Positions 15,731 to 40,498 of a stretch of DNA of 45,310 nucleotides are shown piece after piece. Under the pieces are notes generated by a model. The model saw only the letters and a list, made by a program, of their open reading frames with translations. It had not been told where the DNA came from and searched no databases. Source of the stretch: an uncultured bacterium (GTDB lineage: Bacteria; Hydrogenedentota; Hydrogenedentia; Hydrogenedentales; CAILVY01); contig CALEDJ010000015.1 of NCBI GenBank assembly GCA_937951485.1, positions 1-45,310 on the forward strand. Direction: 5' to 3'. A program made the translations under genes and the position numbers. Numbering within the stretch: the first letter of the stretch is position 1; every line of letters begins with the position of its first letter.

Positions 15731-15810
15731 CATTGGAACGCGCATGATGATGAATTTTACCAGTTTAATGCGGTTACTCAAACTTGACGACAACAGGTAA
15801 AGGAGTGCAC

Positions 15811-17781
15811 ATGCCGGAAGCGAAAAGGGTTTCAGCGGACGTTGCCGCAGATGAGATGGTGCGATTGGCGCAGGAACGCGGCGACAGACTGGCGCATGAC
15901 CGTTATCAGGCGATGCGGCCGCAATGCGGTTTCGGGCAGTTGGGGCTGTGCTGCCATAATTGCAATATGGGGCCGTGCCGGATTGACCCGTTTGGCCAGG
16001 GGACCAGGGAAGGCATCTGCGGCGCATCGGCGGACGTGATTGCAGCGCGGAATCTGGCCCGCCGTGCCGCGGTTGGCTCCGCGGCCCATTCGGACCATGG
16101 CCGCAGTATTGCCATGACGCTGCTGGAAACGGCGCGCGGCCAGGCGCAAGGGTATTCCATCAAAGGACCGGCCAAACTGCTGGCGCTGGCGAAGGAGTGG
16201 GGGATTGCGACGGACAAGCGCAGCCTGGAGGAGATTGCAGAGGAGGTGGCGCTGGCGGCGCTGGAGGACTTTGGGCGGCAGGACGGCGGCCTTCGGTTTG
16301 TCTCCCGCGCACCGGCAAAGGTGCAGGCGCGCTGGGAAAGTCACGGCGTGATGCCGCGCGGCGTTGATCGCGATATTGTGGGGGTGTTGCACAGCACGAA
16401 TATGGGCGGATCCAACGAGCCGTATCATTTGCTCCGCAGTTGCGTGCGGGCGGGCCTGGTGGACGGATGGGGCGGCTCAATGGTCGCCACAGAACTGAGC
16501 GACATCCTGTTCGGCGAACCCGCGCCGCTGGTATCCGAGGCGAACCTGGGCGTACTTAAGGAGGATCATGTCAACATTCTCGTTCATGGCCATGAACCCG
16601 TGCTTTCCGACGCGCTGGTGGCCGCCTCGCAAACCGACGAAGTGATGGCGGCGTGTGAGGCGGTAGGCGCGAAGGGCATTCAGTTGGCGGGGATTTGCTG
16701 CACGGCCAACGAAATTCTCATGCGCCACGGCGTACCCATCGCGGGCAACCTGCTCCACCAGGAATTTGCCCTGGTCACGGGGGCCGTGGACATGATGGTG
16801 GTGGATATCCAGTGCATTTTCCCGTCGTTGCGCGCAGTGGCGGGCAAGTATCACACGAAAATCGTCAGCACTTCGCCCAAGGCCCATTTTGAGGGGTTCA
16901 CCCACATCGAGTTCGACGAACGCCGCGCGCTGGACAGTGCGCGCACGCTGCTGTTGACCGGCATCCAGAATTTTGCGAACCGCGACCCAGGGAAGGTGCA
17001 CATCCCCACGGACAAGTCGCCATTGATTGCGGGATTTACCACCGAGGGCGTCTTTGATCATTTGGGCGGGCGCTACCGGCCCTCGTACCGCCCGTTGAAC
17101 AACGCCATCATAGACGGCCGTATCCGAGGCGTGGTCGGCATTGTCGGCTGCAACACCGTGAAGATCACGCAGGACGAGGCCCATCTGACGCTTGCCAAGG
17201 AATTGCTGCGCCACGATGTACTGATTGTGCAGACGGGGTGTTCGGCGATTGCCTGCGGGAAGGCGGGTCTGTTGACTCCGGAAGCGGTGGAACTGTACGC
17301 GGGGGCCGGGCTTCAGGAAGTATGCGATGCGGTGGGCTTGCCGCCGTGCCTTCATTTGGGCGCGTGCGTGGACAACACGCGCATCCTCACCGCGTGCATC
17401 GAGATATGCCGCGAAGGCGGCTTGGGCGATGACTTTGCGGAGTTGCCGGTTGCGGGGGCTGCGCCGGAATGGATGAGCGACAAGGCGATTGCCATCGGGT
17501 TCTACGTGGTCGGCTCGGGCATCTTTACCGTGGTCGGCGATTCGCTCCCGATTATGGGCAGCCCCCGGGTTGCAGACTACCTGACGGGCGGCATGGAAGA
17601 GGATTTCGGCGCCCGATTCGCTTTCGAGCGCGACCCGCTCAAGGCGGCGGCGCTTATTGTCGAGCATTTGAACGCCAAACGCGAGGCGCTGCATTTGTCG
17701 CCCATGATCTACGAGCCGCGACCGGCGGAAACCCTCGGCAAGAGGTGGCGCGCCGGCGGCGTCGCACTGGCGGCCGTATAG
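15811..17781 (+). CDS. cooS: anaerobic carbon monoxide dehydrogenase catalytic subunit
   Basis: 656 residues from the ATG at 15811 (AAAGGAG six nt upstream). The enzyme interconverts CO and CO2 at a nickel-iron C-cluster and passes electrons through B- and D-clusters to a ferredoxin. The N-terminal cluster motif CGFGQLGLCCHNCNMGPCRI is complete. C-cluster regions follow in order: LVHGHEPVLSDAL, GICCTANEIL, VVDIQCIFPSL, GIVGCNTVK, QTGCSAIACGKAG and HLGACVDNTRI. Length fits the Coo/Acs CODH family (about 630-670). It is the first gene of a unit continuing with CooF-, NuoE-, NuoF- and NuoG-like proteins, so its electrons probably go to NAD(P)+ or come from it. No acetyl-CoA synthase gene is adjacent. 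Confidence 0.97.
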   Translation: MPEAKRVSADVAADEMVRLAQERGDRLAHDRYQAMRPQCGFGQLGLCCHNCNMGPCRIDPFGQGTREGICGASADVIAARNLARRAAVGSAAHSDHGRSIAMTLLETARGQAQGYSIKGPAKLLALAKEWGIATDKRSLEEIAEEVALAALEDFGRQDGGLRFVSRAPAKVQARWESHGVMPRGVDRDIVGVLHSTNMGGSNEPYHLLRSCVRAGLVDGWGGSMVATELSDILFGEPAPLVSEANLGVLKEDHVNILVHGHEPVLSDALVAASQTDEVMAACEAVGAKGIQLAGICCTANEILMRHGVPIAGNLLHQEFALVTGAVDMMVVDIQCIFPSLRAVAGKYHTKIVSTSPKAHFEGFTHIEFDERRALDSARTLLLTGIQNFANRDPGKVHIPTDKSPLIAGFTTEGVFDHLGGRYRPSYRPLNNAIIDGRIRGVVGIVGCNTVKITQDEAHLTLAKELLRHDVLIVQTGCSAIACGKAGLLTPEAVELYAGAGLQEVCDAVGLPPCLHLGACVDNTRILTACIEICREGGLGDDFAELPVAGAAPEWMSDKAIAIGFYVVGSGIFTVVGDSLPIMGSPRVADYLTGGMEEDFGARFAFERDPLKAAALIVEHLNAKREALHLSPMIYEPRPAETLGKRWRAGGVALAAV

Positions 17782-23826: not shown

Positions 23827-24600
23827 ATGAACCCTTTGATCGCGGTGGTAGGCAAAGGCGGCACAGGCAAGAGCACCGTGTCTTCTGTACTGGTGCGCCT
23901 GTTGATGGAACATGGCGAACGTCCGGTGCTTGCGGTGGATGCGGACCCCAACAATACCCTGGCGCCTTTTCTGGGCGTGAGTTGCAGCAGGACCATTGGC
24001 GAGATTCGCGACGAGGTGCTCGCGGAAAAGGAGAAGAGCACCGGGATTCCCAAGGAGCGATTGTTGGAGATGAAGGTTGAGGAGTGTCTTCAGGAATCTG
24101 AGGGTTTTGACCTGCTGACCATGGGGCGATCCGAAGGTCCCGGGTGTTATTGCTACGTGAACAACCTCCTGCGCGGCGCCATGGCGCGGCTGCGCGCCAA
24201 TTACCGCGCCACGGTGGTGGACAACGCGGCGGGCATGGAACACCTGTCGCGCATGAACAACAAGACGATTGATTGCATGGTGCTGGTGTGCGAACCCACG
24301 TCGGTGAGCGCACGGGCGGCTGTGCGAATCAACGCCCTTGCGGACAGTCTGCATGTGGAGGTTGCGCGCCGGGTGTTGGTCTGGAACAAGGTCGAGGGAT
24401 GGGAGCCGCCGGAGAACGTGCGCGCGCTGGCGGGTGAAGAACGATTTGACGATGTCGTGGTGTTGCCGGCGGATGCGGAAATCGCCCGCCTTTCCATCGA
24501 GGAGAAAAGCGTGCTGAAAATTGCGATCCCAGACGCTTTTTCGACGCTGCTGCACGCCTGCGTACAGCATTTAACGCTCGCGGGAGAAAAAAGGTCATGA
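23827..24600 (+). CDS. cooC: CooC/AcsF-type nickel-insertion ATPase
   Basis: 257 residues (AGGAG six nt upstream). A MinD/ArsA-like P-loop ATPase: deviant Walker A VVGKGGTGKST at the N-terminus, VDADPNNTLA (about 38-47), and the metal-binding GPGCYCYVNN (CxC, about 112) that identifies CooC/AcsF maturation proteins, which load nickel into CODH or acetyl-CoA synthase and dimerise through these cysteines. It is the first gene after the second sigma-54 promoter and shares ATGA with AcsD. CooS itself lies in a separate unit 6 kb upstream. Confidence 0.94.
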   Translation: MNPLIAVVGKGGTGKSTVSSVLVRLLMEHGERPVLAVDADPNNTLAPFLGVSCSRTIGEIRDEVLAEKEKSTGIPKERLLEMKVEECLQESEGFDLLTMGRSEGPGCYCYVNNLLRGAMARLRANYRATVVDNAAGMEHLSRMNNKTIDCMVLVCEPTSVSARAAVRINALADSLHVEVARRVLVWNKVEGWEPPENVRALAGEERFDDVVVLPADAEIARLSIEEKSVLKIAIPDAFSTLLHACVQHLTLAGEKRS

Positions 24601-25583
24601 GAGCCAAGGATACAGCAATCAACTGGAACGCCGCGGTGAACACCGTGCGTATCGGCGCGACGCGCAACGAAAACGGAACCCGCGACAGAACGGTGACTCT
24701 TGGCGGAGCGCGCTGCGTGTCATGGATGCGCTACGAAGGGGAACCGGGACATCCCCCCGCGATTGCGGCCGAAATATGGGACCAGGGCGCCGAGAATTGG
24801 CCGGCGCCGATCGTGGAATGCTACGGCGACGTGATCGGCGACCCGGTCGCATGGGCGAAACAAGCCGCTGAATGGGGTGTGGACCTGATTTGTCTGCGCT
24901 TGGCGGGAACGCATCCCGCCGGCGGCGACGCGGGACCGGACAAGGCGGCGGCCGTGGTGAAAGCCGTGCTGGACGCGGTTGAACTCCCCCTGATTGTCTG
25001 GGGATGCGATGTGGAAGATAAAGACAACACGGTCCTCCCGGCATGCAGCGAGGCCGCCAAGGGAGAAAACTGCCTGTTCGGGACGATCAAGGAAAAGAAC
25101 TACCGCACCCTTGTCGCGTCCTGCCTGGCGGATGGCCACAAGATTATTGCCGAGTCGCCCTGCGACATCAATATCGCCAAGCAACTCAACATTCTTGCGC
25201 ACGATGTCGGATTCCCCCTCGAAGATATTGTCATCTTTCCGACCACCGCGGCATTGGGCTGCGGACTGGAGTTCATTTACAGCGCCATGGAGCGCACCCG
25301 CCTGGCCGCGCTCAGCGGTGATCCGCTGCTGCGCCAGCCGATCCTTTGCGATGTCGGCTCTCAGGCGTGGCGGACGCGCGAGGCTTCCACGCCGGACGAG
25401 AATGTGCCGGGCTGGGGTTCCGTGCGCGTGCGCGGCCCGCTCTGGGAGGCCATTACGGCCACGAACTATCTCCAGGCGGGCGGCGACCTGCTCATCATGA
25501 GGCATCCCGAAGCCATCAGGATAGTGCGCGAATCCATCAACCGTTTGTGCCGCACATCCGAGATGGCGATGGCGACTGCATAA
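24597..25583 (+). CDS. acsD: corrinoid iron-sulfur protein small subunit (CFeSP beta)
   Basis: 328 residues, starting in the ATGA overlap with cooC. The TIM-barrel CFeSP small subunit is identified by PAIAAEIWD, CYGDVIGDPVAWAKQAAE, GVDLICLRLAGTHP, LIVWGCDVEDKDNTVLP, GENCLFGTIKEKNYRTL, PCDINIAKQLNIL and GGDLLIMRHPEA. With AcsC it carries the methyl group from methyl-THF to acetyl-CoA synthase. Remarkably AcsC, AcsB and the methyltransferase AcsE are not in the window. It stands between cooC and fhs, consistent with a Wood-Ljungdahl role. Length is close to the family norm of about 310-325. Confidence 0.94.
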   Translation: MRAKDTAINWNAAVNTVRIGATRNENGTRDRTVTLGGARCVSWMRYEGEPGHPPAIAAEIWDQGAENWPAPIVECYGDVIGDPVAWAKQAAEWGVDLICLRLAGTHPAGGDAGPDKAAAVVKAVLDAVELPLIVWGCDVEDKDNTVLPACSEAAKGENCLFGTIKEKNYRTLVASCLADGHKIIAESPCDINIAKQLNILAHDVGFPLEDIVIFPTTAALGCGLEFIYSAMERTRLAALSGDPLLRQPILCDVGSQAWRTREASTPDENVPGWGSVRVRGPLWEAITATNYLQAGGDLLIMRHPEAIRIVRESINRLCRTSEMAMATA

Positions 25584-25738: not shown

Positions 25739-27589
25739 ATGTCTACCACGACCACTTTGGGTATTGCAGTACAGGATCAGGGAAAGGCCCCGTCCAGAAG
25801 AGCGCGCGCCATTAAACCGGCGCCCTTGCGGTTGGACCCGACGAAACTGAAGGACTGGGAAATTGCCGCGGCAACAGAAAAGCGGATGAGAACCGTCTAT
25901 GATCTTGCAGACGAGTTGGGTCTGGAGCGCATGGAATTGCTGCCTTACGGGCATTATGTCGCGAAACTGGACTACCGCAGCATTCTGGACCGGCTTTGCG
26001 ATGCGCCAAGCGGGAAGTACATTGATGTGACTGCGATTACGCCGACGCCGTTGGGCGAGGGGAAATCCACCACCACCATCGGACTGGTGCAGGGTCTTGG
26101 ACGCCTGGGCAAGCGGGTCATTGGCGCGATTCGCCAGCCCTCGAGCGGGCCTACGTTCAACATCAAAGGGTCCGCGGCCGGCGGGGGGCTGAGCCAATGC
26201 ATCCCGCTCACGGAATTCAGCCTTGGGCTTACGGGGGATATTGACGCCGTAAACAATGCGCACAATCTGGCCATGGTGGCCCTTACGAGCCGCCTGCAAC
26301 ACGAGTTCAACTATTCCGATGAACGGCTGGCCAAAGCCAATCTGAAGCGACTGGACATAGATCCCCGCAATCTCGCCATCGGGTGGGCCATAGATTTCTG
26401 CGCGCAGGCGCTGCGGGAAATCATTGTGGGGCTTGGCGGCAAGATGGACGGGTTCATGCTCAAGAGCGGTTTCCAGATCACCGTCTCATCGGAAATCATG
26501 GCCATCCTGTGCGTCTCGACCAGCCTTGCCGATATGCGCAGGCGCATTGGCGAGATGGTTGTGGCCTGGAGCAAATCGGGCAGGCCGGTCACGACGGCCG
26601 ACTTGGAGGTGGACGGCGCCATGACGGCTATCATGGCGCGCGCCCTCAACCCGAATCTGATGCAGACCATCGAGGGGCAGCCGGTGCTGGTTCATGCGGG
26701 GCCTTTCGCCAACATCGCGTTCGGGCAGTCGTCCATTCTTGCGGACATGCTGGGCACGAAACTGGCCGATTACCATGTGACCGAAAGCGGGTTCGGGGCG
26801 GACATCGGCTTCGAGAAGTTCTGGAATTTGAAGTGCCGTTTCAGCCGCCTAGCGCCCCATTGCGCCGTCGTTGTCGCCACCATCCGGGCACTGAAAATGC
26901 ACGGCGGCGGTCCCAAGGTAGTGTCCGGCAAGCCGTTGCCCGCAGCCTATACACAATCGGACCCGGCGTTGGTGGAGAAAGGGGTCGAGAATCTGCTCGC
27001 CCACATTGAAACCGTGAAGAAGAGCGGCGCGAATGCCGTGGTTTGCATCAATCATTTTCACACGGACGCAGACGAAGAGGTGAACGTGGTGCGGCGCGCG
27101 GCGGAGGCGGCGGGCGTGCGTGTCGCCGTGTCAAAGCACTGGCAGTACGGCGGAGAAGGGGCCATTGAACTGGCCGAGGCCGTGCTTGACGCCTGCAACG
27201 AGCCTTCAACGTTCCAATTGTTGTATGAAGACGATACGCCCGTGAAGGACAAGATTGAGCGTATCGCTTTGGGCGTATATGGCGCCGACGGGGTGTCCTA
27301 CAGCGCGACTGCCGAGGCGAAAATCGATCAGATTCAGGGTGATGAGAACACGAAGCGACTCGGTATTTGCATGGTCAAGACACATCTGAGTCTTTCGCAT
27401 GATCCCGAACGGAAAGGACGCCCGCGCGGATGGACGCTGCCCATTCGTGATGTGCTTGTGTATCGCGGCGCAGGCGTGGTCGTGCCGGTGGCGGGTGATA
27501 TCAAACTCATGCCGGGCACCTCTTCGGACCCCGCCTACCGCAAGATTGATGTGGATACCGAGACCGGAGCGGTGCGCGGCCTGTTCTAG
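25739..27589 (+). CDS. fhs: formate-tetrahydrofolate ligase
   Basis: 616 residues from the ATG at 25739 (AGAGGAG nine nt upstream). ATP-dependent formylation of tetrahydrofolate, the second step of the methyl branch. Nucleotide site [16 protein letters not shown] (about residues 102-117), followed by [47 protein letters not shown] and [17 protein letters not shown] at the C-terminus. The protein is longer than the usual 555-590 residues; the first 35 or so ([20 protein letters not shown]) look like an extra N-terminal tail. It lies 155 bp after acsD and 86 bp before hdrC, in the same likely transcript. Confidence 0.97.
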
Positions 27590-27675: not shown

Positions 27676-28173
27676 ATGCCAGTAGCATTCAGAGAAAATA
27701 TCAACCGCTGTTACCAATGCGGAAAATGCTCGACCGGATGCCCCATAGCCGAGGCCATGGACATGCTTCCGCATCAGGTGATCCATTTGCTGGCCTTGGG
27801 AATGGAAGCGCGGGTCAGACCGCTCAACACGCCGTGGCTGTGCGCCGGATGCTATACGTGCGCGGTGCGCTGTCCCAACGACATTGACGTGACGGCGGTC
27901 ATGGGCGAATTGCGCGAGAAGGCGATTGCGGCGGGTGCGCCGTGCCCTTGCCCCGATGTACTCGCATTCCACAGGAATTTCCTGCGGGATTTGAAACGTC
28001 GGGGGCGCATCCATGAACTGCGGATGATGGGCGAATACAACCTGCTGACCCGCCGCCCATTCCGGGATGCCGCGCTGGCATCGAAAATGCTGCTGAAGGG
28101 GCGGCTGCCGTTGCGTGCGCCCAGGGCGTTGCGTGGTTTCAAACGGTGGGTGCGGAAAGCGGGGCGACTGTGA
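27676..28173 (+). CDS. hdrC: heterodisulfide reductase-like subunit C
   Basis: 165 residues with two 4Fe-4S motifs typical of HdrC: CYQCGKCSTGCP (about residues 12-23) and CAGCYTCAVRCP (about 56-67), followed by a basic helical C-terminus. HdrC passes electrons between HdrA and HdrB. It shares GTGA with hdrB. With hdrB, hdrA, mvhD, metV and metF it forms a set as in acetogens, where HdrABC-MvhD accompanies MetFV methylene-THF reductase. Confidence 0.93.
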   Translation: MPVAFRENINRCYQCGKCSTGCPIAEAMDMLPHQVIHLLALGMEARVRPLNTPWLCAGCYTCAVRCPNDIDVTAVMGELREKAIAAGAPCPCPDVLAFHRNFLRDLKRRGRIHELRMMGEYNLLTRRPFRDAALASKMLLKGRLPLRAPRALRGFKRWVRKAGRL

Positions 28174-29102
28174 AAAAGGCGACGGGACTATATCCGGGGT
28201 GCAGCCTGGAAGGAACTTCCAAGGCTTTCCGCACCAGCCTGCGCAGCGTGTTGCGGAGGCTCGATGCGCAGTGCGAGCCGTTGCGTGATTGGAACTGCTG
28301 TGGGGCGAGTTCGGCCCATGCCATGGACCATGAATTGTACCTGGCCTTGAGCGCGCGGAACCTGGCGCAGGCGCGAGACCAGGGCTACGAGGAAATCATT
28401 GCGCCGTGCGCCGCATGTTATCACCGGCTGGTTTGCGCGGAGATGGAACTGGCCCGGCATCCCGAAACGCTCGCGGCGGTCAACGCCCGGACCGGCCTGA
28501 ACTACGGCGGCGGAATTGCGGTGCTGAACATGCTCGATTACTTTACGGACCGGGTGGGCCTTTCCGCCATCGGCGAACAGGTCAGGCAACCCCTGAAAGG
28601 CCTGCGGGTCGCCTGTTACTACGGCTGCTTGAACAGCCGGATACCCCATGCCGCGGCCACGTCGGGGCCGCCAGACGCTCCCGGGGGCGCCACCCGCAGT
28701 GAATATCCGATGTCCATGGACCACATTGTTGCGGCATTGGGCGCGCAGCCGCTGGATTGGTCCTATAAGACCGAATGCTGCGGAGCCAGTTTGTTTGTAA
28801 CGGCATCGTCGGTTTCGGCGCGGCTTGTAGGGCACATTCTGAAAGATGCGGTGGCGGCGGGCGCGGATTGCATCAGCGTGGCCTGTCCAATGTGCCAAAA
28901 CAACCTCGATACCAAACAGGACGCGATACGCGCCGCCTTTGGCATCGGCCGGCCCATGCCGGTCCTGTTCATTACGCAGTTGATGGGGCTGGCTTTCGGC
29001 GTGTCGGCCGCTGAGTTGAGGATTGGAGATGCCCTTGTGCCGTTCCAGTGGCGCGTAGACAAGGGCGGCGCGGCGGCGGAGGTGACGGCATGTCCGGCAT
29101 GA
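28170..29102 (+). CDS. hdrB: heterodisulfide reductase-like subunit B
   Basis: 310 residues from the GTG at 28170 (overlapping the hdrC stop); a GTG at 28146 is a less likely alternative. Two CCG-type domains carry the cysteines of the noncubane 4Fe-4S clusters: YPGCSLEG, WNCCGASSAHAMD and CAACYHRLVC in the first; YYGCLN, ECCGASL and CPMCQNNLD in the second. The family role is two-electron chemistry on a disulfide-like substrate; here, in a methylene-THF context, the acceptor is unknown. It overlaps hdrA by 13 bases. Confidence 0.93.
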   Translation: MKKATGLYPGCSLEGTSKAFRTSLRSVLRRLDAQCEPLRDWNCCGASSAHAMDHELYLALSARNLAQARDQGYEEIIAPCAACYHRLVCAEMELARHPETLAAVNARTGLNYGGGIAVLNMLDYFTDRVGLSAIGEQVRQPLKGLRVACYYGCLNSRIPHAAATSGPPDAPGGATRSEYPMSMDHIVAALGAQPLDWSYKTECCGASLFVTASSVSARLVGHILKDAVAAGADCISVACPMCQNNLDTKQDAIRAAFGIGRPMPVLFITQLMGLAFGVSAAELRIGDALVPFQWRVDKGGAAAEVTACPA

Positions 29103-32100
29103 ACAACGGCGCTCCGGTCGGAGCGGTGCTGGTGCTCGGCGGCGGCATTGCGGGCATGCAGGCGGCGCTGGATTGCGCCAACTCCGGCTTCAAGGTGTAC
29201 CTGGTGGAACAGCAGGCGTCCATCGGCGGCAACATGGCGCGCCTGGACAAGACATTCCCGACCAATGACTGCGCGATGTGCATGATTTCGCCAAAACTGG
29301 TCGAGACCGGACGCCATCTCAATATCGAAATCATCGCAAACGCGGACCTGAAGGCGGTGGCGGGCACGCCCGGTCGTTTTCAGGCAACCATCAAGAAGCG
29401 TGCCCGGTATGTGGATGAGAACAAATGCAACGGGTGCGGGGATTGCGAACGCGCCTGCCCCGTGACCTGCAGGGATGCGTTCAATGGCGACCTCGGAGAG
29501 CGGCACGCTATCCATCGGTTGTATCCGCAGGCGATCCCCAACGTATATGCCATTTCCAAGGCAGGCGCACTGCCGCCATGCCGGGGCGTCTGCCCGGCGG
29601 GCGTGAATGCCCAGGGCTATGTGGCCCTGATCGCCAAGGGCAAATTCCTGGAATCGCTGGATGTGGTCCGCGAACGCATGCCCTTTGCGGGTATCTGTGG
29701 TCGCGTGTGCCATCATCCCTGCGAAACCCAGTGCAATCGCGCGAAAGTGGACGAGCCGATCGCCGTCCGCCACCTGAAGCGTTTTGTCGCCGATTATGAG
29801 TGGTCGCTGATAAAAACGGGCCAGTCCATCGCGCGCGCGCCCAGCGAAGCGCCTGTGGCCGAACCGCAGCGCTATCAGGAACGCGTGGCCGTCGTGGGCG
29901 GCGGCCCCGCCGGGATGACCTGCGCCAACGATCTGGCCAAGATGGGCTATGCCGTCACCGTTTTCGAGGCGGCGGAACAACTGGGCGGCATGATGCGCCA
30001 GGGGATTCCCGCCTACCGGCTGCCGCGTGAGGTGCTTGACCACGAGATCGCGCTCATCACCGGCCAAGGCATTGACGTGCGCACCAACCAGGCATTGGGC
30101 CGCGATTTCACCCTGTCAGACCTCCGGGCGCAGGGCTATGCCTGCACTTTTGTGGCCACCGGCGCGCACCTGCCCAAACGCATTCCGCTAGAAGGCAGCG
30201 ACGCCGTCGGCGTCCTGTACGGGACATCCTTTTTGCGCGAGGTCAACGTGGGACAAGCCCCGCGCCTGGGCAAGCGCATCGCGGTGATCGGCGGCGGCAA
30301 TGTCGCGATTGACGCGGCGCGCTGCGCCCTGCGCGAAAGCCCTGACAGCGCGGTGGCGCTGTATTGCCTGGAAGCGCGTGGGGAAATGCCCGCGCATGAG
30401 TGGGAGATACAGGAAGCGCTGGAGGAGGGCATCGCCATCCATCCGTCCTGGGGGCCGGGGCGCATTCTTGTCAGGAACGGCGCAGTGCGTGGGTTGGAAC
30501 TCGTGAGGTGTCTGTGCGTCTTTGATGAAAACAGGCAATTCAACCCGAAGTTTGACCGGGCAGAGACGCAACAGGTCACGGCGGACACGATTATTCTGGC
30601 GGTGGGCCAGGTTTGCGACCTGTCCTTTGTGGACGGGCATGTGCAAACGAAGCATGGACTGATAGCCGTGGACCGGATCACCCTCGAAACCTCGATGAAG
30701 GGCGTGTTTGCGGGGGGCGACAACGTGCTGGGGCCGGCATCGCTGGTGCAAGCCGTCGAGCAGGGGCACCGCGCCGCCGAGTCCATGCACCGTTTCATGC
30801 GCGGGCTTGACCTGCGTGAAGGCCGGGAAGCGGTCGAACGTAGCGCGGAATTCGCCGCCCCCCCCGCTGAGACGCCGGTGGTTCCCGCCAGGCGGATCGC
30901 CATTCCCACAGCCTCCCCGGAAGAACGGAAGCGGTCTTTTCTGGAGATGGAACACGGTTACACCCCGGAGATGGCGATGGCGGAAGCGCAGCGTTGCCTG
31001 AACTGCGGCATTTGCTCCCAGTGCAACGAATGCGTCCGGGTCTGCAAGGCCCATGCGATAGACCATGCCATGCGCGACCAGGACCTGACGCTGGAGGTCG
31101 GCGCTGTCATCGTGACCAACGGATACGATCTTTTTGACCCGCGTATCAAGGCCGAGTACGGGTTTGGCCGCTATCCCAACGTGATCACGAGCATGCAATT
31201 CGAGCGCATCCTGAGCGCGTCCGGGCCATACCAGGGGCACGTGCGACGTCCCGGCGACGGCAAGACGCCCAGGAAGGTCGCGTGGATTCAGTGCGTCGGA
31301 TCACGCGATACAACGCTGGGCAGGAACTACTGCTCTTCCGTTTGCTGCATGTACGCCACGAAAGAGGCGATCATCGCGAAAGAACACGAAAAGGACCTGG
31401 AGCCGACCATTTTCTTCATTGACCTCCGCGCTTTCGGCAAAGGGTATGAGGAATTCTACAACCGCGCCAAATCCCAATACGGGGTGCGGTATGTGCGCAG
31501 CCAGGTCTCCTCGCTCAAGGAGAATCCTGAGAACAAGAACATCATTATCCGGTATGTGGGGGAATCCGAGGGCCGCATACGCATTGTCGAGGAGGAATTC
31601 GATCTGGTGGTGTTGTCCGTGGGGATGACGGCGCGCCCGGACACCGCGGTGCTGACGCAAACCCTCGGCATCTCCTGCAACGAATACGGCTTTGCTCGCG
31701 GTTCGCAGGCGTTGCCGCTGCTGTCGGACAGGGAGGGGATTTATCTGTGCGGGACGGTGAGCGGCCCGAAGGACATTCCGGAGACGGTCATGGAAAGCAG
31801 CGCGGCGGCGGCGCTGTGCGGACAGTTGCTGGGCCGCGCGCGCGGGACGCGGGTGCGCATCAAGGAGTATCCCGCGGAGCGCGAGGTGGCGGGCGAAGCG
31901 CCGCGAATCGGCGTTTTCATCTGCCATTGCGGCACAAACATCGCCTCGGTGGTGGATGTCGCGGCCGTGGCCGAATATGTGAAAAGCATCCCCGGCCTGA
32001 CCCATGCGGAGCATACCCTGTACGCCTGCTCCCAAGACACCCAGGAACGGATCAAGGGCATCATTCAAGAGAAAAGGCTGAATCGCGTCATCGTGGCTTC

Positions 32101-33625
32101 CTGCACACCGCGCACCCATGAGCCGCTGTTCCAGGAAACCCTGCGCGAGGCGGGACTGAACAAATATCTCTTCGAGATGGCGGATATCCGGGAGCAATGC
32201 TCGTGGGTCCATCAAGGCGAATCCGTTCGGGCCACGGAAAAGGCCAAGGCGCTGGTACGCGGCAGCATTGGCAAAGCCAGAAACCTGGAGCCCCTGAAAT
32301 TCAATCGCGTGGGCGTCACGCGATGCGCGTTGGTTGTCGGCGGCGGCATCGCAGGCTTGACTGCCGCGCATTCGCTGGCGCGGCAGGGCTTTTCCGTGCA
32401 CCTGGTGGAGAAATCCGGCACGCTGGGAGGCCAGTTACGCAAAGTCCGCCGCAGTCTCGAAGGCTATGATTGGCAACGACACCTGGAGAACCTTATCGCG
32501 CAGGTGCAAGCCGACGAATCCATCACTGTGCACCTGAATTCCGAGATCGCCGAATGCAACGGCTTTGTCGGCAACTTCACCACCCGCCTCCAGGGGGCGA
32601 GCAACGCGACGATTAATCACGGCGTGACGCTGGTCGCGACCGGCGCCGCCGAGTTTCAGCCCGACGGATTCCTGTATGGCGGGAGTCCGCGCGTCATGAC
32701 GCAGCAATCTTTGGAGGAAATGCTTCATGGGGGAAACGGTTTGCGCGGGTCATCGGGGCACGCGGAACGCCCGCCGGAATCGGTGGTCATGATTCAGTGC
32801 GTGGGGAGCCGGGACGAAAAGCGGCCTTATTGTTCGCGGGTCTGCTGCGGCGCGGCGGTGAAAAACGCCCTTGCCGTTAAAGAGAAATATCCCGACACCC
32901 AGGTGTACGTGCTGTACCGGGATATGCGCACCTATCAGTACAGGGAAGAATACTACTGGCAGGCGCGTGACCGGGGAGTCGTTTTCATCCACTTTCCTGA
33001 CGAGGAATACCCCGAAGTCGGCCAGGAAGGGGATCGCCTGAGGGTTTCGGTGAGGGACACCGCCTTGGGCGAACCCCTGACGCTGCCCGCGGATTGGGTG
33101 GTGTTGAGCACGGCTGTTGTGCCGGACCGAGCCAGCAACGGGCGTCTAGCCGAACTCCTGAAGATTCCCCTGAATGATCATGGCTTTTTCATGGAGGCGC
33201 ACATCAAATTGCGGCCCGTTGACTTTGCGAATGAGGGCATATTTGTGTGCGGGCTGGCGCACTCGCCGAAATACACGGAGGAAAACATCTCCCAGGCGCT
33301 GGCGGCGGCGGGACGCGCCGCCTGCATCCTGTCCCGGAATTACCTGGAAGTGGGCGGCGTAATTTCTCATGTCAACCAGAACAAGTGCGCCGCGTGTCTG
33401 ACTTGCGTGCGGGAATGCGTTTACCAAGCCCCGTTCATCAATGCCGAGGGCAAGGCCGAGATCGAAGAAGCGAAATGCCAGGGCTGCGGCAACTGCGCGG
33501 CGGCATGCCCTGCCAAGGCAATCCAGTTGCAGGCGTTTACGGACGCCCAGGAACAGGCGTTGGTGCGCAGTCTTCTCAATGAAACGGCGGCGGAAGCGCA
33601 ACAAATGGCGCTGGCGCGGGAGTAG
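29090..33625 (+). CDS. hdrA: giant HdrA with inserted GltD/NfnB module and second HdrA half
   Basis: 1511 residues (perfect GGAGGTGA before ATG 29090). Layout: HdrA N-terminal FAD domain (VLVLGGGIAGMQAAL, residues 13-27) with CAMCMISPKL; a ferredoxin site CNGCGDCERACP (113-124); then an inserted GltD/NfnB-type module, with Cys-rich CRGVCPAGVNAQGY and CGRVCHHPCETQC (about 164-215), FAD site VAVVGGGPAGM (about 266) and NAD(P) site IAVIGGGNVAIDAA (about 402); then HdrA resumes at CLNCGICSQCNECVRVC (about 636) through IQCVGSRD and SVCCMYATKEA. From about 938 a second HdrA begins (IGVFICHCG, YACSQDTQERI, ASCTPRTHEP, VVGGGIAGLTAAH near 1082) and ends in two 4Fe-4S motifs. Probably the flavin-based bifurcating core, with an added NAD(P)H entry point. 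Ordinary HdrA is about 650 residues. Confidence 0.93.
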   Translation: MSGMNNGAPVGAVLVLGGGIAGMQAALDCANSGFKVYLVEQQASIGGNMARLDKTFPTNDCAMCMISPKLVETGRHLNIEIIANADLKAVAGTPGRFQATIKKRARYVDENKCNGCGDCERACPVTCRDAFNGDLGERHAIHRLYPQAIPNVYAISKAGALPPCRGVCPAGVNAQGYVALIAKGKFLESLDVVRERMPFAGICGRVCHHPCETQCNRAKVDEPIAVRHLKRFVADYEWSLIKTGQSIARAPSEAPVAEPQRYQERVAVVGGGPAGMTCANDLAKMGYAVTVFEAAEQLGGMMRQGIPAYRLPREVLDHEIALITGQGIDVRTNQALGRDFTLSDLRAQGYACTFVATGAHLPKRIPLEGSDAVGVLYGTSFLREVNVGQAPRLGKRIAVIGGGNVAIDAARCALRESPDSAVALYCLEARGEMPAHEWEIQEALEEGIAIHPSWGPGRILVRNGAVRGLELVRCLCVFDENRQFNPKFDRAETQQVTADTIILAVGQVCDLSFVDGHVQTKHGLIAVDRITLETSMKGVFAGGDNVLGPASLVQAVEQGHRAAESMHRFMRGLDLREGREAVERSAEFAAPPAETPVVPARRIAIPTASPEERKRSFLEMEHGYTPEMAMAEAQRCLNCGICSQCNECVRVCKAHAIDHAMRDQDLTLEVGAVIVTNGYDLFDPRIKAEYGFGRYPNVITSMQFERILSASGPYQGHVRRPGDGKTPRKVAWIQCVGSRDTTLGRNYCSSVCCMYATKEAIIAKEHEKDLEPTIFFIDLRAFGKGYEEFYNRAKSQYGVRYVRSQVSSLKENPENKNIIIRYVGESEGRIRIVEEEFDLVVLSVGMTARPDTAVLTQTLGISCNEYGFARGSQALPLLSDREGIYLCGTVSGPKDIPETVMESSAAAALCGQLLGRARGTRVRIKEYPAEREVAGEAPRIGVFICHCGTNIASVVDVAAVAEYVKSIPGLTHAEHTLYACSQDTQERIKGIIQEKRLNRVIVASCTPRTHEPLFQETLREAGLNKYLFEMADIREQCSWVHQGESVRATEKAKALVRGSIGKARNLEPLKFNRVGVTRCALVVGGGIAGLTAAHSLARQGFSVHLVEKSGTLGGQLRKVRRSLEGYDWQRHLENLIAQVQADESITVHLNSEIAECNGFVGNFTTRLQGASNATINHGVTLVATGAAEFQPDGFLYGGSPRVMTQQSLEEMLHGGNGLRGSSGHAERPPESVVMIQCVGSRDEKRPYCSRVCCGAAVKNALAVKEKYPDTQVYVLYRDMRTYQYREEYYWQARDRGVVFIHFPDEEYPEVGQEGDRLRVSVRDTALGEPLTLPADWVVLSTAVVPDRASNGRLAELLKIPLNDHGFFMEAHIKLRPVDFANEGIFVCGLAHSPKYTEENISQALAAAGRAACILSRNYLEVGGVISHVNQNKCAACLTCVRECVYQAPFINAEGKAEIEEAKCQGCGNCAAACPAKAIQLQAFTDAQEQALVRSLLNETAAEAQQMALARE

Positions 33626-33629
33626 GGCA

Positions 33630-34112
33630 ATGAGCACGGAAACAATTGCAATGCCGGCGGAGACAGCCGAAACGGACGCGTTGAGGATCATCGCGTTCTG
33701 TTGTCATTATTGCGCGTTTACGGCGGCGGACCTTGCCGGGACCATGCGCCGGCAATACCCGCCCAACATCCGCATTGTCCGGTTCCCATGCACGGGACGT
33801 CTGGAGACCAACACAATCCTGCAGGCCTTTCTCGATGGGGCGGACGGCGTACTGGTGGCGGGATGCGAGCCGGGCGGTTGCCATTTCCTCAAAGGGAATC
33901 TGCGCGCGGCCAAGCGGGTCGAACACTGCCGGAGGCTGCTGGAGCAGGCCGGTGTATCGCCGGAACGGCTTGAAATGCGGCATATCGCGGCGTCGCAGGG
34001 GCCGCTGTTCGCCGAAACGGCCAGGCAGTTTACGGAAAAGATTCGCATGATCAAGGAACAGGCCCGACGCGGGACAGCCCCCTCCGACGAATGCCTTGGA
34101 GACGAGCCATGA
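33630..34112 (+). CDS. mvhD: MvhD-like [2Fe-2S] subunit
   Basis: 160 residues (GGGAGTAGGG upstream). Typical MvhD/FrhD cysteines: FCCHYCAFTAAD near residue 24, RFPCTGRLE near 53, and AGCEPGGCHFLKGN near 80. In methanogens MvhD links hydrogenase to HdrA; in acetogens and sulfate reducers it links other donors to Hdr. It stands between hdrA and metV, with an ATGA overlap to metV, so it probably connects the Hdr core with the MetFV reductase here. Confidence 0.93.
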   Translation: MSTETIAMPAETAETDALRIIAFCCHYCAFTAADLAGTMRRQYPPNIRIVRFPCTGRLETNTILQAFLDGADGVLVAGCEPGGCHFLKGNLRAAKRVEHCRRLLEQAGVSPERLEMRHIAASQGPLFAETARQFTEKIRMIKEQARRGTAPSDECLGDEP

Positions 34113-34783
34113 TTGTAGCCGAACAGAAGCCCTTTGAGGATATTTACAGTTACGCCAAGAGGCATCGGCGCGTGTTGTTGCTGGGCTGCGGCACCTGCGT
34201 GACGGTGTGCATGGCCGGCGGCGAAAAGGAAGTGGGCATCCTGGCCTCGCTGGTCCGCCTCGCCGCCCGCGAACGCAATGACGACATCACGGTGGATGAG
34301 CACACCATCACGCGGCAGTGCGACGCGGAGTTTTTCGATGAGACGACCGCCCGGAAAGCCGCCGACGCCGAGGCCGTCATCTCGATGGGCTGCGGCGTGG
34401 GCGTGCAGTTCTGCGCACAACGATTCCCCGACAAAATCGTGTACCCCGCCCTGAACACCAAGTTCTACGGCGCCACAATCGAGCAAGGGGTGTGGGCGGA
34501 ACGTTGCGCGGGTTGCGGCGAATGCGTGCTGGCGGATTTCGGCGGCATATGCCCCGTCGCGCGGTGCTCCAAGAGCCTGTTGAACGGCCCCTGCGGCGGT
34601 TCGCAAGACGGCCGATGCGAGGTGGACCCGGAGCGTGTCGAGTGCGCCTGGCAACTCATTTACGAGCGAATGGAGGCGATGGGCCGCCTTGAGGAATTGG
34701 AGAAGATACAGCCGTTCAAGGACTGGTCGCAGCACCGCGACGGCGGCCCAAGAACCATCACAAGGGAAGAAGTGCGGCTATGA
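34109..34783 (+). CDS. metV: methylene-tetrahydrofolate reductase C-terminal-domain protein MetV
   Basis: 224 residues from the ATG at 34109 in ATGA overlap. Cysteine-rich zinc/iron-sulfur protein: GCGTCVTVC near residue 27, GCGVGVQFC near 95, and a C-terminal CAGCGECVLADFGGICPVAR (about 136-155) and GPCGGSQDGRCEV (about 165-177), the last being the MetV-typical NGPCGG..G.CE motif. It partners MetF in acetogens and other Wood-Ljungdahl bacteria and is required for activity. Coupled to metF by a second ATGA. Confidence 0.93.
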   Translation: MIVAEQKPFEDIYSYAKRHRRVLLLGCGTCVTVCMAGGEKEVGILASLVRLAARERNDDITVDEHTITRQCDAEFFDETTARKAADAEAVISMGCGVGVQFCAQRFPDKIVYPALNTKFYGATIEQGVWAERCAGCGECVLADFGGICPVARCSKSLLNGPCGGSQDGRCEVDPERVECAWQLIYERMEAMGRLEELEKIQPFKDWSQHRDGGPRTITREEVRL

Positions 34784-35835
34784 ACACCACCATGCTGAAA
34801 GCCGGAAGCCGGTTGGAGCGGATATTGCGCTCGGGGCGCCCCGTCGTCACCGCAGAATTAGGGCCGCCCAAGAGCGCTGACACGGATCTCATCCGCAGAA
34901 AGGCCGGATACCTGCGGGGCGTGGTTGATGCCGCCAATATCACGGACAACCAGACTGCAATCGTGCGCATGTCGTCCATTGGGGCCGCTCTGATCGCGAT
35001 GCAGGAGGGCCTCGAACCGGTCATCCAGATCACATGCCGTGACCGCAACCGCTTGGCCGTTCAGAGCGACGTCTTGGGGGCCTATGCCCTGGGTATTCGC
35101 AATGTCCTGTGCCTGACCGGCGACCACCAGAAATTCGGCAACCATCCTGCGGCGAAAAATGTGTTCGACATGGACTCCATCCAGCTGGTGGCCATGCTGA
35201 GAGCCATGCGGGATGAAAAAGTCTTTGCCTGCGGCGATGAAATCCGCAACTCGAAAAAGGCGCCCGTCGTCGAGCCAAGAATGTTCATCGGCGCTGCCGC
35301 CAATCCCTTTGGCGATCCCTTCCCCTTCCGGGTCGCGCGCCTGGCCAAAAAGGTCAATGCCGGGGCCGATTTCATTCAGACGCAGTGCATTTACGACATG
35401 AAACGGTTCCGGCAGTGGATGCAGCAGGTGTGTGACCGGGGACTCCATGAAAGGGTTTACATTCTGGCCGGCATCACTCCCCTGAAGTCACTGCGAATGG
35501 CGGAGCACATGCGCGACAATGTCGCGGGGTTGACCGTGCCCGAAGAGATCATTGAACGACTGCGCGGCGCGGAAAATGCCGCCGAGGAAGGCGAGCGAAT
35601 CGCCGTCGAGCAGATTCAGGAATTGCTCCAGATTCCAGGTGTGCACGGCGTGCATATCATGGCGATTGAAAGCGAACACATAGTACCCGATCTGCTGAAG
35701 AAAGCGGGGCTGTTGCCGCGCCCGGTCGTGGCAGACCCTTTGCATGACGCAGTGACGTCCGGCCCCGAAATGCTGCGCGATTCCGTAAGCGGCGTTGCGG
35801 AGAATCGCAACCGGGCCGCGCAACCCGTCGGATAA
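34780..35835 (+). CDS. metF: methylenetetrahydrofolate reductase
   Basis: 351 residues, starting in ATGA overlap with metV. TIM-barrel MetF: VVTAELGPPKSADT (residues 22-35) with the catalytic-region Glu, ITCRDRNRLAVQSD (about 84-97), LTGDHQKFG (about 111-119), a GAAANPFG motif (about 172) and AGADFIQTQCIYDM near 202. Reduces methylene-THF to methyl-THF using flavin; in this operon the electrons probably come through MetV and the Hdr-MvhD complex rather than directly from NADH. Last gene of the unit; about 80 nt later the third sigma-54 promoter begins the next unit. Confidence 0.96.
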   Translation: MNTTMLKAGSRLERILRSGRPVVTAELGPPKSADTDLIRRKAGYLRGVVDAANITDNQTAIVRMSSIGAALIAMQEGLEPVIQITCRDRNRLAVQSDVLGAYALGIRNVLCLTGDHQKFGNHPAAKNVFDMDSIQLVAMLRAMRDEKVFACGDEIRNSKKAPVVEPRMFIGAAANPFGDPFPFRVARLAKKVNAGADFIQTQCIYDMKRFRQWMQQVCDRGLHERVYILAGITPLKSLRMAEHMRDNVAGLTVPEEIIERLRGAENAAEEGERIAVEQIQELLQIPGVHGVHIMAIESEHIVPDLLKKAGLLPRPVVADPLHDAVTSGPEMLRDSVSGVAENRNRAAQPVG

Positions 35836-36881: not shown

Positions 36882-37394
36882 ATGGCCGTAGCGCTGGAGA
36901 TTGACCTTGCGCCGGTAGAGGAAATTCTGGAGAAGAGCGCGGCGTCGCGGAACGGGGATGACGAGGAGTTCTGTTCCGGGGACATCATCTCCATCCTGCA
37001 GGAGATACAGCGGATTTACGGTTATCTCCCGTTTGAGGCGCTACGGCGGGTCAGTCAGCGCACCGGCGTACCCGAGAGCCGCATCCAGGGAGTGGTGACA
37101 TTCTATGCCCAGTTCCATCGAGAGCCGCGCGGCCGCCACAGGCTGACCCTTTGCTGCGGCACCTCGTGCCACGTGCGGGGCGGCAACAAACTGTTGGATG
37201 CCGTCAAGAAAGTGCTTGACCTCGAACCCGGCAGCACGTCGGCGGATTCCCAAGTTACATTGGAGACGGCCGCGTGCCTCGGCGCCTGTGCGCTGTCGCC
37301 GGTCATGGTCATCAACGGCAAGTACTATGGCAAGTTGACCCCGCGCAAGGGCGAGCGACTCGTACGGATGATGGCGCGGGAAGAACAGACATGA
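36882..37394 (+). CDS. NuoE-like [2Fe-2S] subunit of the formate dehydrogenase complex
   Basis: 170 residues (AAGGAGAACAACCA before the ATG). A four-helix N-terminus (SILQEIQRIYGYLP) is followed by a thioredoxin-like domain with the [2Fe-2S] ligands in CCGTSCHVRGG (C-x4-C) and CLGACALSP (C-x3-C). It shares ATGA with the NuoF-GltD fusion and so probably delivers electrons to it. It is a paralogue of the 18346-18846 product, with clearly different sequence. Confidence 0.94.
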   Translation: MAVALEIDLAPVEEILEKSAASRNGDDEEFCSGDIISILQEIQRIYGYLPFEALRRVSQRTGVPESRIQGVVTFYAQFHREPRGRHRLTLCCGTSCHVRGGNKLLDAVKKVLDLEPGSTSADSQVTLETAACLGACALSPVMVINGKYYGKLTPRKGERLVRMMAREEQT

Positions 37395-40300
37395 AAAGAC
37401 TGGGCACCGTCGCCGAATTGCATGCCTGGAGAGAACGCATCCGCGCCAATGTAAGGAAGGGGGGTCACACCATCGCGGTATGCGGCACCGGATGCGATGC
37501 GGTGGGAGCCTCGGAAGTGGCGGAGGCCCTCGATCGGGCGATTGCACAACGGGGGCTGGAGCGGTCAGTCCTGGTGAAGCGCACCGGCTGTCATGGCTTT
37601 TGTGAACAAGGGCCGATCGTGGTGGTGCGTCCCGGCGACATCTTCTATGCGCGGGTCGAGCCTGCGGATGCCGCGGAAATTGTGGACAAGAGCGTGGCGG
37701 GGGGGGAAATCATTGAACGCCTGTTGTACAAGGACCCTGTCACCGGGGAACGGGTGATACGGGAACAGGACATTCCTTTTTATGCCCGGCAGACCCGCGT
37801 GCTGCTGCGCGACAACAGTCGCATGGACCCGCTCTCGCTGGAGGACTACGTCGCGAACGACGGGTATGCGGCGCTCGCCAAAGCGCTGAGCGAAATGACG
37901 CCCGACCAGGTCATTGACGAAATCCTTGAGTCTGGGCTGAGGGGGCGCGGCGGCGCCGGATTTCCGACGGGCGTGAAATGGCGCTTTTGCCGGGAAGCGC
38001 CGGGCGAATGCAAAGTGATCGTGTGCAATGCCGACGAGGGCGACCCGGGCGCGTTCATGGACCGCAGCCTCCTGGAAGGCGCGCCGCATGCAATTCTCGA
38101 GGGCATGTGCATCGCGGCCTATGCGATTGGGGCGCGCCGGGGCTTCGTTTATGTCCGGGCCGAATACCCCCTCGCCGTGCGCCACACGCGCATCGCCATC
38201 GAGCAGGCGCAACAGGCGGGATTGCTGGGCGACAGGATTCTGGGGACCGGTTTTCGGCTTCATCTCAGTGTGCGCGAAGGCGCCGGCGCTTTCGTGTGCG
38301 GCGAAGAAACAGCGCTGATCGCTTCCCTCGAGGGGCGGCGCGGCACGCCGAGGACCCGGCCCCCCTTTCCCGCGCGCCAGGGATACCGGGGGCAACCGAC
38401 GACCATCAATAACGTCGAGACACTGGCCAATGTCCCGCTGATCCTGCGACATGGGAAGGACTGGTACCGTTCCATCGGGACCGACGCCAGCAAGGGCACC
38501 AAGATATTCGCCCTCGCGGGCAAAGTGAACAACACCGGCCTGGTCGAAGCGCCGATGGGCGCGACCCTGAGACAGATCATTTTCGATATCGGCGGGGGCA
38601 TCCCCCGGAAGCGCCGCGTCAAAGCGGTCCAGATGGGCGGTCCCTCGGGTGGCTGTGTGCCGGCCCAATTCCTGGATCTGCCGATTGACTACGAATCCAT
38701 GAAGGAGATTGGGGCTATCATGGGGTCCGGCGGCCTCATCGTCATGGATGAATTGACGTGCATCGTTGACATCGCCCGGTTCTTCATGGAGTTCGTGCAA
38801 AACGAGTCCTGCGGAAAATGTGTACCGTGTCGCATCGGCACCCGCCATCTCCTTGACCTGTTGACCCGCATCTGCGAAGGTCAGGGCCAGGAGGGCGACA
38901 TCGAGCGGCTCGAAGAACTCGCCCGGCTGGTCAAGGCGGGTTCGCTGTGCGGGCTGGGGCAGACCGCACCGAATCCGGTGCTCTCAACGCTGCGCTATTT
39001 CCGCGAAGAGTATGAGGAACACATCCGGCAACGGCATTGCCGGGCTGCGGCCTGCGAAGCCCTGGTCGAAACGCCATGCAGTCACGCGTGCCCCGCCGGT
39101 GTGAATGTCCCCCATTACATCGGACTCATCGCGGAGGGAAGAGAAAACGATGCCGTAAACGTGGTGCGGCGCCGGAATCCCTTTGTGTCGGTGTGCGGGC
39201 GGGTATGCGATGCGCCCTGTGAAACGCGCTGCCGCCGCGTTGATCTGGACGAGCCGCTGGCCATCCGGGCGCTCAAGCGTTATGCCGGCGACCACAATGA
39301 CAACGGAAGAGCGACACTCACGCGTCCGGTTTCGGGGAAAGCGGAAGTGGCCATTATCGGCAGCGGTCCCGCAGGACTGGCATGCGCCTATTTTCTGGCG
39401 CTGCTGCAGCGGTGCTCAACGGTTTTCGAGGCGCTGCCGATTCCCGGGGGCATGCTGGCCGTGGGCATTCCCGAGTTCCGCCTTCCCAAGGCAGCACTTC
39501 AGGCCGACATTGATTTCATCCTGTCGCACGGCGTGGACCTGCGTACCAACACGCGCATCGGCAAAGCCGACGCGCTTCTGAGCCAAGGCTATCGCGCCGT
39601 GTTTGTCGCCACGGGGGCTCAGACCGGCCAGCCATTGAACATTGAAGGGGAGCGGAGCGCGGGGGTGATTGATGCATTGAGCCTGCTGCGGCGCCGCGCG
39701 CTGGGCGAACCGTGTCATTGCGGGAAGATCGTGGCGGTGGTTGGTGGCGGCAACGCGGCGGTGGACGCTGCGCGGTCGGCGCTGCGTCTGGGTGCCGAAA
39801 CGGTTTACATCCTGTATCGTCGGACGCGGGAGGAAATGCCCGCCTATGAGGAGGAAGTGGAGGCCGGACTTGCGGAAGGACTGGAACTGATGGAACTGGT
39901 GGCGCCGAAGCGCATCCATACAGCAGACGGCAGGGTGTCAGGGATCGAACTGATCAAGATGCGCCTCGGAGAGGCGGACTCCGGCGGACGCCGCCGCCCC
40001 ATCCCTGTCGAAGGCAGTGAATTCGTGCTGCCATGCGACATGGTGGTTCCCGCCATCGGTCAACAGCCGTCCCTGGAGCCGGTGAATCACCTGGTTGAAC
40101 GGACTGCTTCGGGGGCGGTGCGCGTGGACGCCCGCACATGCGTGACATCCGTGGCGCGGATCTTCGCCGGAGGCGATTGCATTTCCGGCGGCGGCACCGT
40201 CATCGAAGCCATCGCGGCGGGACAAAGGACGGCCGTGGCGATAGACCGCCTGCTGGGCGGGTCGGGAGTGCTGCCCGAAAACACCGGCGGCAGCCTGTGG

Positions 40301-40495
40301 CGCCCCGCCGCCGAACAAATGGCCGCCGCGTCCTCTCGCTGCAAAGAAGACATGCTTCCGGTCGAACACCGCCGGAACGGATTCGCGGAGGTGGTCGCCG
40401 GCCTGGGACCGCTGCATGCGCGGCAGGAAGCGCAACGCTGCATGCGTTGCGACCTGGAAAGAAGGCACCGGCGCCCCGTGAAACAGGAAAGGTAG
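37391..40495 (+). CDS. NuoF-like flavoprotein fused to a GltD/NfnB-like NAD(P)H oxidoreductase
   Basis: 1034 residues from the ATG at 37391 (ATGA overlap). N-terminal thioredoxin-like [2Fe-2S] domain (CGTGCDAVGA, RTGCHGFCEQGP). NuoF core: FMN motif GLRGRGGAGFPTGVKW (about 184-199), CNADEGDPGAFMDR, GAGAFVCGEETALIASLEGR (about 298), and the cluster ESCGKCVPCRIG (about 472). Instead of the usual ferredoxin tail it continues into a GltD/NfnB-like half: CSHACPAGVNVPHYIGLIAE (about 562), CGRVCDAPCETRC, FAD site VAIIGSGPAGLACAY (about 654), NAD(P) site VAVVGGGNAAVDAARSAL (about 780), and GGDCISGGGTVIEAIAAGQR near 925. One polypeptide therefore has two flavin and two nucleotide sites, a bifurcation- or transhydrogenase-like plan. 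It is followed after 3 bp by the formate dehydrogenase. Confidence 0.93.
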   Translation: MKRLGTVAELHAWRERIRANVRKGGHTIAVCGTGCDAVGASEVAEALDRAIAQRGLERSVLVKRTGCHGFCEQGPIVVVRPGDIFYARVEPADAAEIVDKSVAGGEIIERLLYKDPVTGERVIREQDIPFYARQTRVLLRDNSRMDPLSLEDYVANDGYAALAKALSEMTPDQVIDEILESGLRGRGGAGFPTGVKWRFCREAPGECKVIVCNADEGDPGAFMDRSLLEGAPHAILEGMCIAAYAIGARRGFVYVRAEYPLAVRHTRIAIEQAQQAGLLGDRILGTGFRLHLSVREGAGAFVCGEETALIASLEGRRGTPRTRPPFPARQGYRGQPTTINNVETLANVPLILRHGKDWYRSIGTDASKGTKIFALAGKVNNTGLVEAPMGATLRQIIFDIGGGIPRKRRVKAVQMGGPSGGCVPAQFLDLPIDYESMKEIGAIMGSGGLIVMDELTCIVDIARFFMEFVQNESCGKCVPCRIGTRHLLDLLTRICEGQGQEGDIERLEELARLVKAGSLCGLGQTAPNPVLSTLRYFREEYEEHIRQRHCRAAACEALVETPCSHACPAGVNVPHYIGLIAEGRENDAVNVVRRRNPFVSVCGRVCDAPCETRCRRVDLDEPLAIRALKRYAGDHNDNGRATLTRPVSGKAEVAIIGSGPAGLACAYFLALLQRCSTVFEALPIPGGMLAVGIPEFRLPKAALQADIDFILSHGVDLRTNTRIGKADALLSQGYRAVFVATGAQTGQPLNIEGERSAGVIDALSLLRRRALGEPCHCGKIVAVVGGGNAAVDAARSALRLGAETVYILYRRTREEMPAYEEEVEAGLAEGLELMELVAPKRIHTADGRVSGIELIKMRLGEADSGGRRRPIPVEGSEFVLPCDMVVPAIGQQPSLEPVNHLVERTASGAVRVDARTCVTSVARIFAGGDCISGGGTVIEAIAAGQRTAVAIDRLLGGSGVLPENTGGSLWRPAAEQMAAASSRCKEDMLPVEHRRNGFAEVVAGLGPLHARQEAQRCMRCDLERRHRRPVKQER

Positions 40496-40498
40496 GGG

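Follow-up and report, generated by a model that had tools for sequence, protein, structure and literature searches.

In 2014, Mock reportedly described the methylene-THF reductase of Moorella thermoacetica as a MetFV-HdrABC-MvhD complex. The HdrA chain of this organism carries an extra ferredoxin and TrxR domain interrupted by GltD, has a C-terminal HdrA without the inserted ferredoxin, and was assigned eight [4Fe-4S] clusters, three FAD, one NAD(P)H site and an E/K pair in both copies (Kremp et al. 2022, PMC9430772); the purified complex oxidizes NADH with benzyl viologen and reduces methylene-THF (PMC5861303). Sporomusa ovata also has a fused double HdrA together with MetVF, MvhD and HdrBC, but it lacks the GltD insert and has just one extra TrxR-like domain, at its N-terminus (PMC9430772). 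The MetVF of Sporomusa, whose HdrA is without GltD, does not co-purify with its Hdr proteins. The HdrL1-L3 proteins of Desulfobacterium autotrophicum are Hdr/glutamate synthase fusions with an NADH site and an adjoining mvhD, some of them containing Sec, while HdrL1 differs in adjoining dsrABC, not metVF (Strittmatter 2009, PMC2702500). In ANME-1 and Bathyarchaeota, HdrA9/10/11 (published in 2022 for ANME-1) and type III HdrA (2025) hold a GltD/NfnB insert in the same ferredoxin domain; these are archaeal, number nine sequences, follow the domain pattern of a single type I HdrA and, in the accessible portions of both reports, come without mention of a MetFV-HdrABC-MvhD operon (PMC12054007, PMC9012536). 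Finally, BamE of class II benzoyl-CoA reductase likewise couples an HdrA with two flavin sites to an NADH module, but this module (NuoEFG/Bfu-like BamGHI) is separate.

The window analysed here, a stretch of 45,310 nucleotides from an uncultured Hydrogenedentota bacterium, encodes a member of this known kind, whose layout has been seen in Moorella, an acetogen, and in numerous sulfate reducers. The gene is a single intact reading frame with an ATG start and zero internal stops (Table 1). By published description, Moorella HdrA agrees with it in the domain order, the GltD-interrupted copy 1, the copy 2 without inserted ferredoxin, the E/K pair in both FAD domains and the hdr-mvhD-metVF operon, and differs in belonging to another phylum. 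The original prediction was to fall if this domain order proved already common and characterised in an HdrA subtype, which is largely the case; the window protein bears out a known design for a phylum that has been little studied. The operon runs hdrC-hdrB-hdrA-mvhD-metV-metF with adjoining or overlapping genes. Ahead of it lie a cooC-like gene, acsD and fhs and, at a greater distance, cooS; a formate dehydrogenase comes downstream, and a CdhC/AcsB match falls just outside the window. By operon content and HdrA domain order, the gene set is that of the Moorella-type MetFV-HdrABC-MvhD, and the NADH oxidation and methylene-THF reduction known from Moorella are predicted for it. A full GltD module is also fused to NuoF in the formate dehydrogenase operon (window positions 37,391-40,495), and reading frames of similar length with GltD modules (1027 and 1044 aa) occur on contigs C51 and C5.

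Table 1 Features of the hdrA locus and its surroundings in the window
Feature	Position	Strand	Remarks
cooS, CO dehydrogenase	15784..17781	+	
acsD/cdhD-type corrinoid protein subunit	24597..25583	+	
Formate-tetrahydrofolate ligase (fhs)	25739..27589	+	Wood-Ljungdahl context
hdrC	27676..28173	+	TIGR03290
hdrB	28170..29102	+	Both CCG motifs intact; start codon uncertain, GTG 28146 or 28170
hdrA-gltD-hdrA gene, 1511 aa	29090..33625	+	
Copy-1 HdrA N part, residues 11-156	29120..29557	+	FAD motif 17-22; C61/C64; 5odc 146-290
Inserted ferredoxin Cys motif I: C113, C116, C119, C123	29426..29458	+	Invariant in homologues
GltD/NfnL module, residues 157-640	29558..31009	+	Exchange boundaries 156/157 to ~598-659
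GltD/NfnL parts			Fer4_20 162-238; FAD domain 263-378 + 500-575; NAD(P) domain 379-499; C-terminal CLNC 636-639
CLEAR, residues 426-430	30365..30379	+	E428 acidic; end of strand beta2
Copy-1 HdrA C part, residues 641-917	31010..31840	+	E705 + K758
Inserted ferredoxin Cys motif II: C642, C645, C648, C652	31013..31045	+	
Copy-2 HdrA, residues 938-1505	31901..33604	+	No inserted ferredoxin
Copy-2 HdrA parts			N-terminal C945, C947, C980, C1005; FAD motif 1084-1089; E1209/K1258; C-terminal 2[4Fe-4S] ferredoxin 1433-1473
mvhD	33630..34112	+	PF02662
metV	34091..34783	+	PF12225
metF	34780..35835	+	
NuoE, NuoF-GltD fusion, FdhA-NuoG	36882..43207	+	NAD(P)-linked formate dehydrogenase

Comparison with solved structures places residues 13-157 on residues 146-290 of Methanothermococcus HdrA (5odc), residues 160-648 on GltD/NfnL proteins (E ~1e-103 to NfnABC/Stn subunits; best matches 9bov, 9n5u and 8oh5), residues 630-911 on 5odc 281-562, and residues ~938-1505 on the entire 5odc HdrA (2-652) minus the inserted ferredoxin only. 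These E-values rule out chance similarity, and bear out the earlier claim of an HdrA interrupted by a complete GltD/NfnB module and followed by more HdrA. Pfam places Fer4_20 at 162-238 and Pyr_redox_2 at 265-559. Specifically, the insert enters between 5odc residues 290 and 294, inside the inserted ferredoxin domain of HdrA, and the GltD module is flanked by both Cys motifs of this domain (C113-C123 and C642-C652), which retains its cluster ligands though interrupted. The predicted split in the ferredoxin region thus held, while its boundary near residue 124 did not, the HdrA homology reaching ~157. Likewise, a second HdrA with its own FAD motif does begin near 938, but is almost a whole HdrA and not a half: it comprises the N-terminal domain, FAD domain and C-terminal ferredoxin, whereas the first copy is without N-terminal and C-terminal domains. 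FAD motifs at 17-22, 270-275 and 1084-1089 give the three flavin sites expected in one chain, and an NAD(P) motif lies at 401-406; all four are kept across homologues. On whole-protein scores the chain falls below the NCBIfam cut-offs (NF040770, 986.8 bits against 1100; NF041778, 752.2 against 1400), by which it is homologous to the methanogen CoB-CoM heterodisulfide reductase HdrA, but not its equivalog.

The AlphaFold2 model of residues 1-1078 alone (pLDDT 87.7, pTM 0.82) shows the HdrA fold re-forming around the insert. In this model the HdrA fold closes across the insert, with residues 8-917 superimposing on 8rwn over 425 aligned residues (rmsd 1.4), and the insert adopts the NfnL fold (476 residues aligned to 9bov, rmsd 2.1). 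The large subunits NfnL/NfnB, StnC and NfnABC match the inserted module in fold (Z 45-48, rmsd 2.1-2.3), but they stand free whereas the module of the window sits inside HdrA. A homologue without GltD, L091, is also predicted as one confident unit (pTM 0.89), in which copy 1 corresponds to HdrA 149-575 and copy 2 to HdrA 2-652.

Scanning GTDB genomes gave 577 relatives, the best 80 of which cover the whole protein or reach a contig end (L009-L088). The layout recurs in these best 80 of 577, confirming the same insertion point elsewhere. Among these best 80 of 577, at least 80 full-length homologues in many phyla, most are in Desulfobacterota and others, by record title, in Chloroflexota, Bacillota, Spirochaetota, Planctomycetota and Acidobacteriota. 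That 80 independent loci share this layout, isolates among them (Desulfospira joergensenii and Desulfatitalea alkaliphila), refutes an assembly or annotation artefact, which we regard as having practically no probability even for a draft genome of 77 contigs. A GltD-insert HdrA also occurs in the phylum of the window as L092 (G019:C135, frame of 1158 aa), which looks like a single HdrA that has the N-terminal domain, resembling the archaeal type III.

Sequence ends aside, the predicted Fe-S cluster ligands are invariant in 80 homologues, while C203 varies. In HdrA of M. thermolithotrophicus, E356/K409 marks bifurcating flavins (PMC9430772). The equivalent pair in copy 1, E705/K758, is kept in 80/80 and 76/80 homologues, respectively, and that in copy 2, E1209/K1258, in 28/80 and 67/80; the copy-2 glutamate, lost in many homologues, is kept in the window protein. 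Thus the copy with the NADH module is the copy with the strictly kept flavin signature. With both pairs present, the chain has by its residues the flavin signature of bifurcating HdrA, and with GltD inside the ferredoxin domain it classes by sequence with type III HdrA/HdrL. C64, the equivalent of methanogen HdrA Cys197, is encoded by TGA in 31/80 homologue loci. This in-frame TGA presumably specifies selenocysteine, which agrees with the HdrA and HdrL selenoproteins already known (PMC2702500). Additionally, C64 is present in copy 1, which lacks the N-terminal domain, whereas copy 2 has the cysteines of that domain but no C64 equivalent. Since the two HdrA copies complement each other, the single chain probably folds as its own heterodimer; Chadwick et al. 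interpret a complementarity of this kind, though with the order reversed, as a self-heterodimer (PMC9012536).

The inserted modules fall into two predicted types. At positions 427-428, the end of the second strand of the NAD(P) domain, the window protein and 46 homologues read LE and 32 homologues RR; we predict LE to be the NAD type and RR the NADP type, as in Nfn. The CLEAR site of the window, with E428, contrasts with YRR in other family members. Trees built from the HdrA parts require 14-17 changes of this label, whereas those built from the GltD module, or from its NAD(P) domain with the label region removed, require only 2-3. For instance, L074 and L083 are 53% identical outside but 86% identical within residues 157-598, and L035 and L085 are 80% identical outside but 43% within residues 232-634; fitted exchange boundaries often begin at 156/157. 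At equal HdrA identity, same-label pairs are far closer in GltD than different-label pairs, for example 69 versus 51% at 70-75% HdrA identity. Point mutation alone does not account for the switch of signature: in AU tests, GltD data rejected four HdrA sister pairs (p 1.7e-7 to 0.014), and HdrA data rejected a single origin of the NAD type. Together, these comparisons suggest that divergent HdrA proteins swap the GltD module as a unit, a cassette exchange that switches the predicted NAD/NADP signature. Both types can be held by single genomes, as with L028 and L063 on one contig. Moreover, in one genus of the window genome's family the module is present in L090 and absent in L091, with flanks 82-90% identical, both in hdrC-hdrB-hdrA-mvhD-metV; the empty site of L091 reads CIECMRCVKAC at Cys motif II. 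metV lies downstream of hdrA in 45/51 testable homologue loci, and a link between its presence and the NAD/NADP signature was not convincing (30/31 versus 15/19, p = 0.06).

We consider it quite probable that the window protein is the HdrA of a Moorella-type MetFV-HdrABC-MvhD methylene-THF reductase with NADH input, operating along the following path. NADH would bind the inserted GltD/NfnL module and pass a hydride to the module FAD; the preference for NADH is predicted from the E428 signature and the Moorella precedent. Electrons would then leave singly via the [4Fe-4S] clusters of the GltD module to the HdrA ferredoxin domain flanking the insert, and from there to the FAD of copy 1, which bears the bifurcating E/K pair. 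One branch would lead from this FAD through MvhD and MetV to MetF, reducing methylene-THF, and the other through copy 2 and its C-terminal ferredoxin to HdrCB and a second acceptor. The insert would thereby put the NAD(P)H entry in place of the usual ferredoxin exit. The original prediction that NAD(P)H enters Hdr-type bifurcation with MetFV therefore keeps its likely NAD(P)H donor and its MetFV/MvhD partners, and loses its novelty.

For any family member, neither electron bifurcation nor a low-potential or second acceptor has been demonstrated in the literature consulted, which counts against the proposed path, as does the lack of co-purification in Sporomusa. The complex may not bifurcate at all, the insert simply yielding an NADH:methylene-THF reductase: electron transfer from NADH to methylene-THF is exergonic by itself, no low-potential acceptor is known for Moorella (PMC5861303), and the canonical ferredoxin exit is taken up by GltD, as argued in PMC12054007. 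The strict retention of the copy-1 flavin signature, and of HdrC and an HdrB with intact CCG motifs that would be useless in a linear path, speaks against this reading, which we find unlikely. Conversely, the GltD/NfnL flavin might be a second bifurcating site as in NfnAB, giving two bifurcations in series. The inserted module is nearer to the NfnABC/Stn/Nfn large subunits than to GltD, its R310, an invariant column, corresponds in the alignment to Arg187, the arginine at the b-FAD in T. maritima NfnB, and Chadwick et al. raise a second site for ANME-1 HdrA-NfnB (PMC9012536). However, the high-potential Nfn partner NfnS ([2Fe-2S], a-FAD) was not found among the identified operon genes and the arginine may be kept for other reasons; we consider serial bifurcation rather improbable.

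The bifurcating NADH-dependent reductase could also run in reverse, with methyl-THF and a second reductant jointly supplying electrons to NAD(P)+ by confurcation while acetate or one-carbon compounds are oxidized. Many Desulfobacterota oxidize acetate via the reversed pathway, and most of the best 80 of 577 homologues belong to that phylum. Direction is not readable from sequence, and the genome of the window has no dsrA above the cut-off and six clear [FeFe] hydrogenase domains; the reverse reaction is possible, if doubtful.

The same ferredoxin loop is broken in a second hdrA of the window's genome, L108 (G000:C18:40000-52000, minus strand 10067-663). Here HdrA 1-257 is fused to NuoE, followed by NuoF and then by a NuoG-type domain fused to HdrA 253-644 (NF040770 profile positions). 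The operon contains hdrCB, and genes for the VhuG and VhuA NiFe hydrogenase follow the split hdrA. NuoEFG-split hdrA genes also occur in two other genera (L123 and L124), while a relative, L125, has an uninterrupted hdrA, 71-72% identical, in the same operon. No HdrA-NuoE fusion was seen in 297 genomes from the phylum of genome G072, with five candidates scored per genome. The GltD cassette exchange, the filled/empty pair in one genus and the NuoEFG-split hdrA appear to be new; a search of open-access papers yielded no mention of the exchange or the split gene, which is weak evidence of novelty.

Based on these observations, we lean towards the view that the loop between the HdrA ferredoxin Cys motifs is a general socket: unrelated NAD(P)H dehydrogenases would have entered it, been acquired or lost there, and replaced one another as cassettes, each time setting anew which donor feeds the Hdr complex. 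Its occupants would be GltD/NfnL with an NAD-like or NADP-like signature and NuoEFG, two of them in the window's genome. In the energy conservation of acetogens, sulfate reducers and also methanotrophic archaea, HdrA modules set which donor is coupled to which acceptor. More useful than the single protein is the family-wide result: with naturally filled and empty sites, and with NAD and NADP cassettes paired in a common scaffold, donor specificity can be tested directly. That the ferredoxin loop also holds another kind of NADH module hints at the purpose of this domain.
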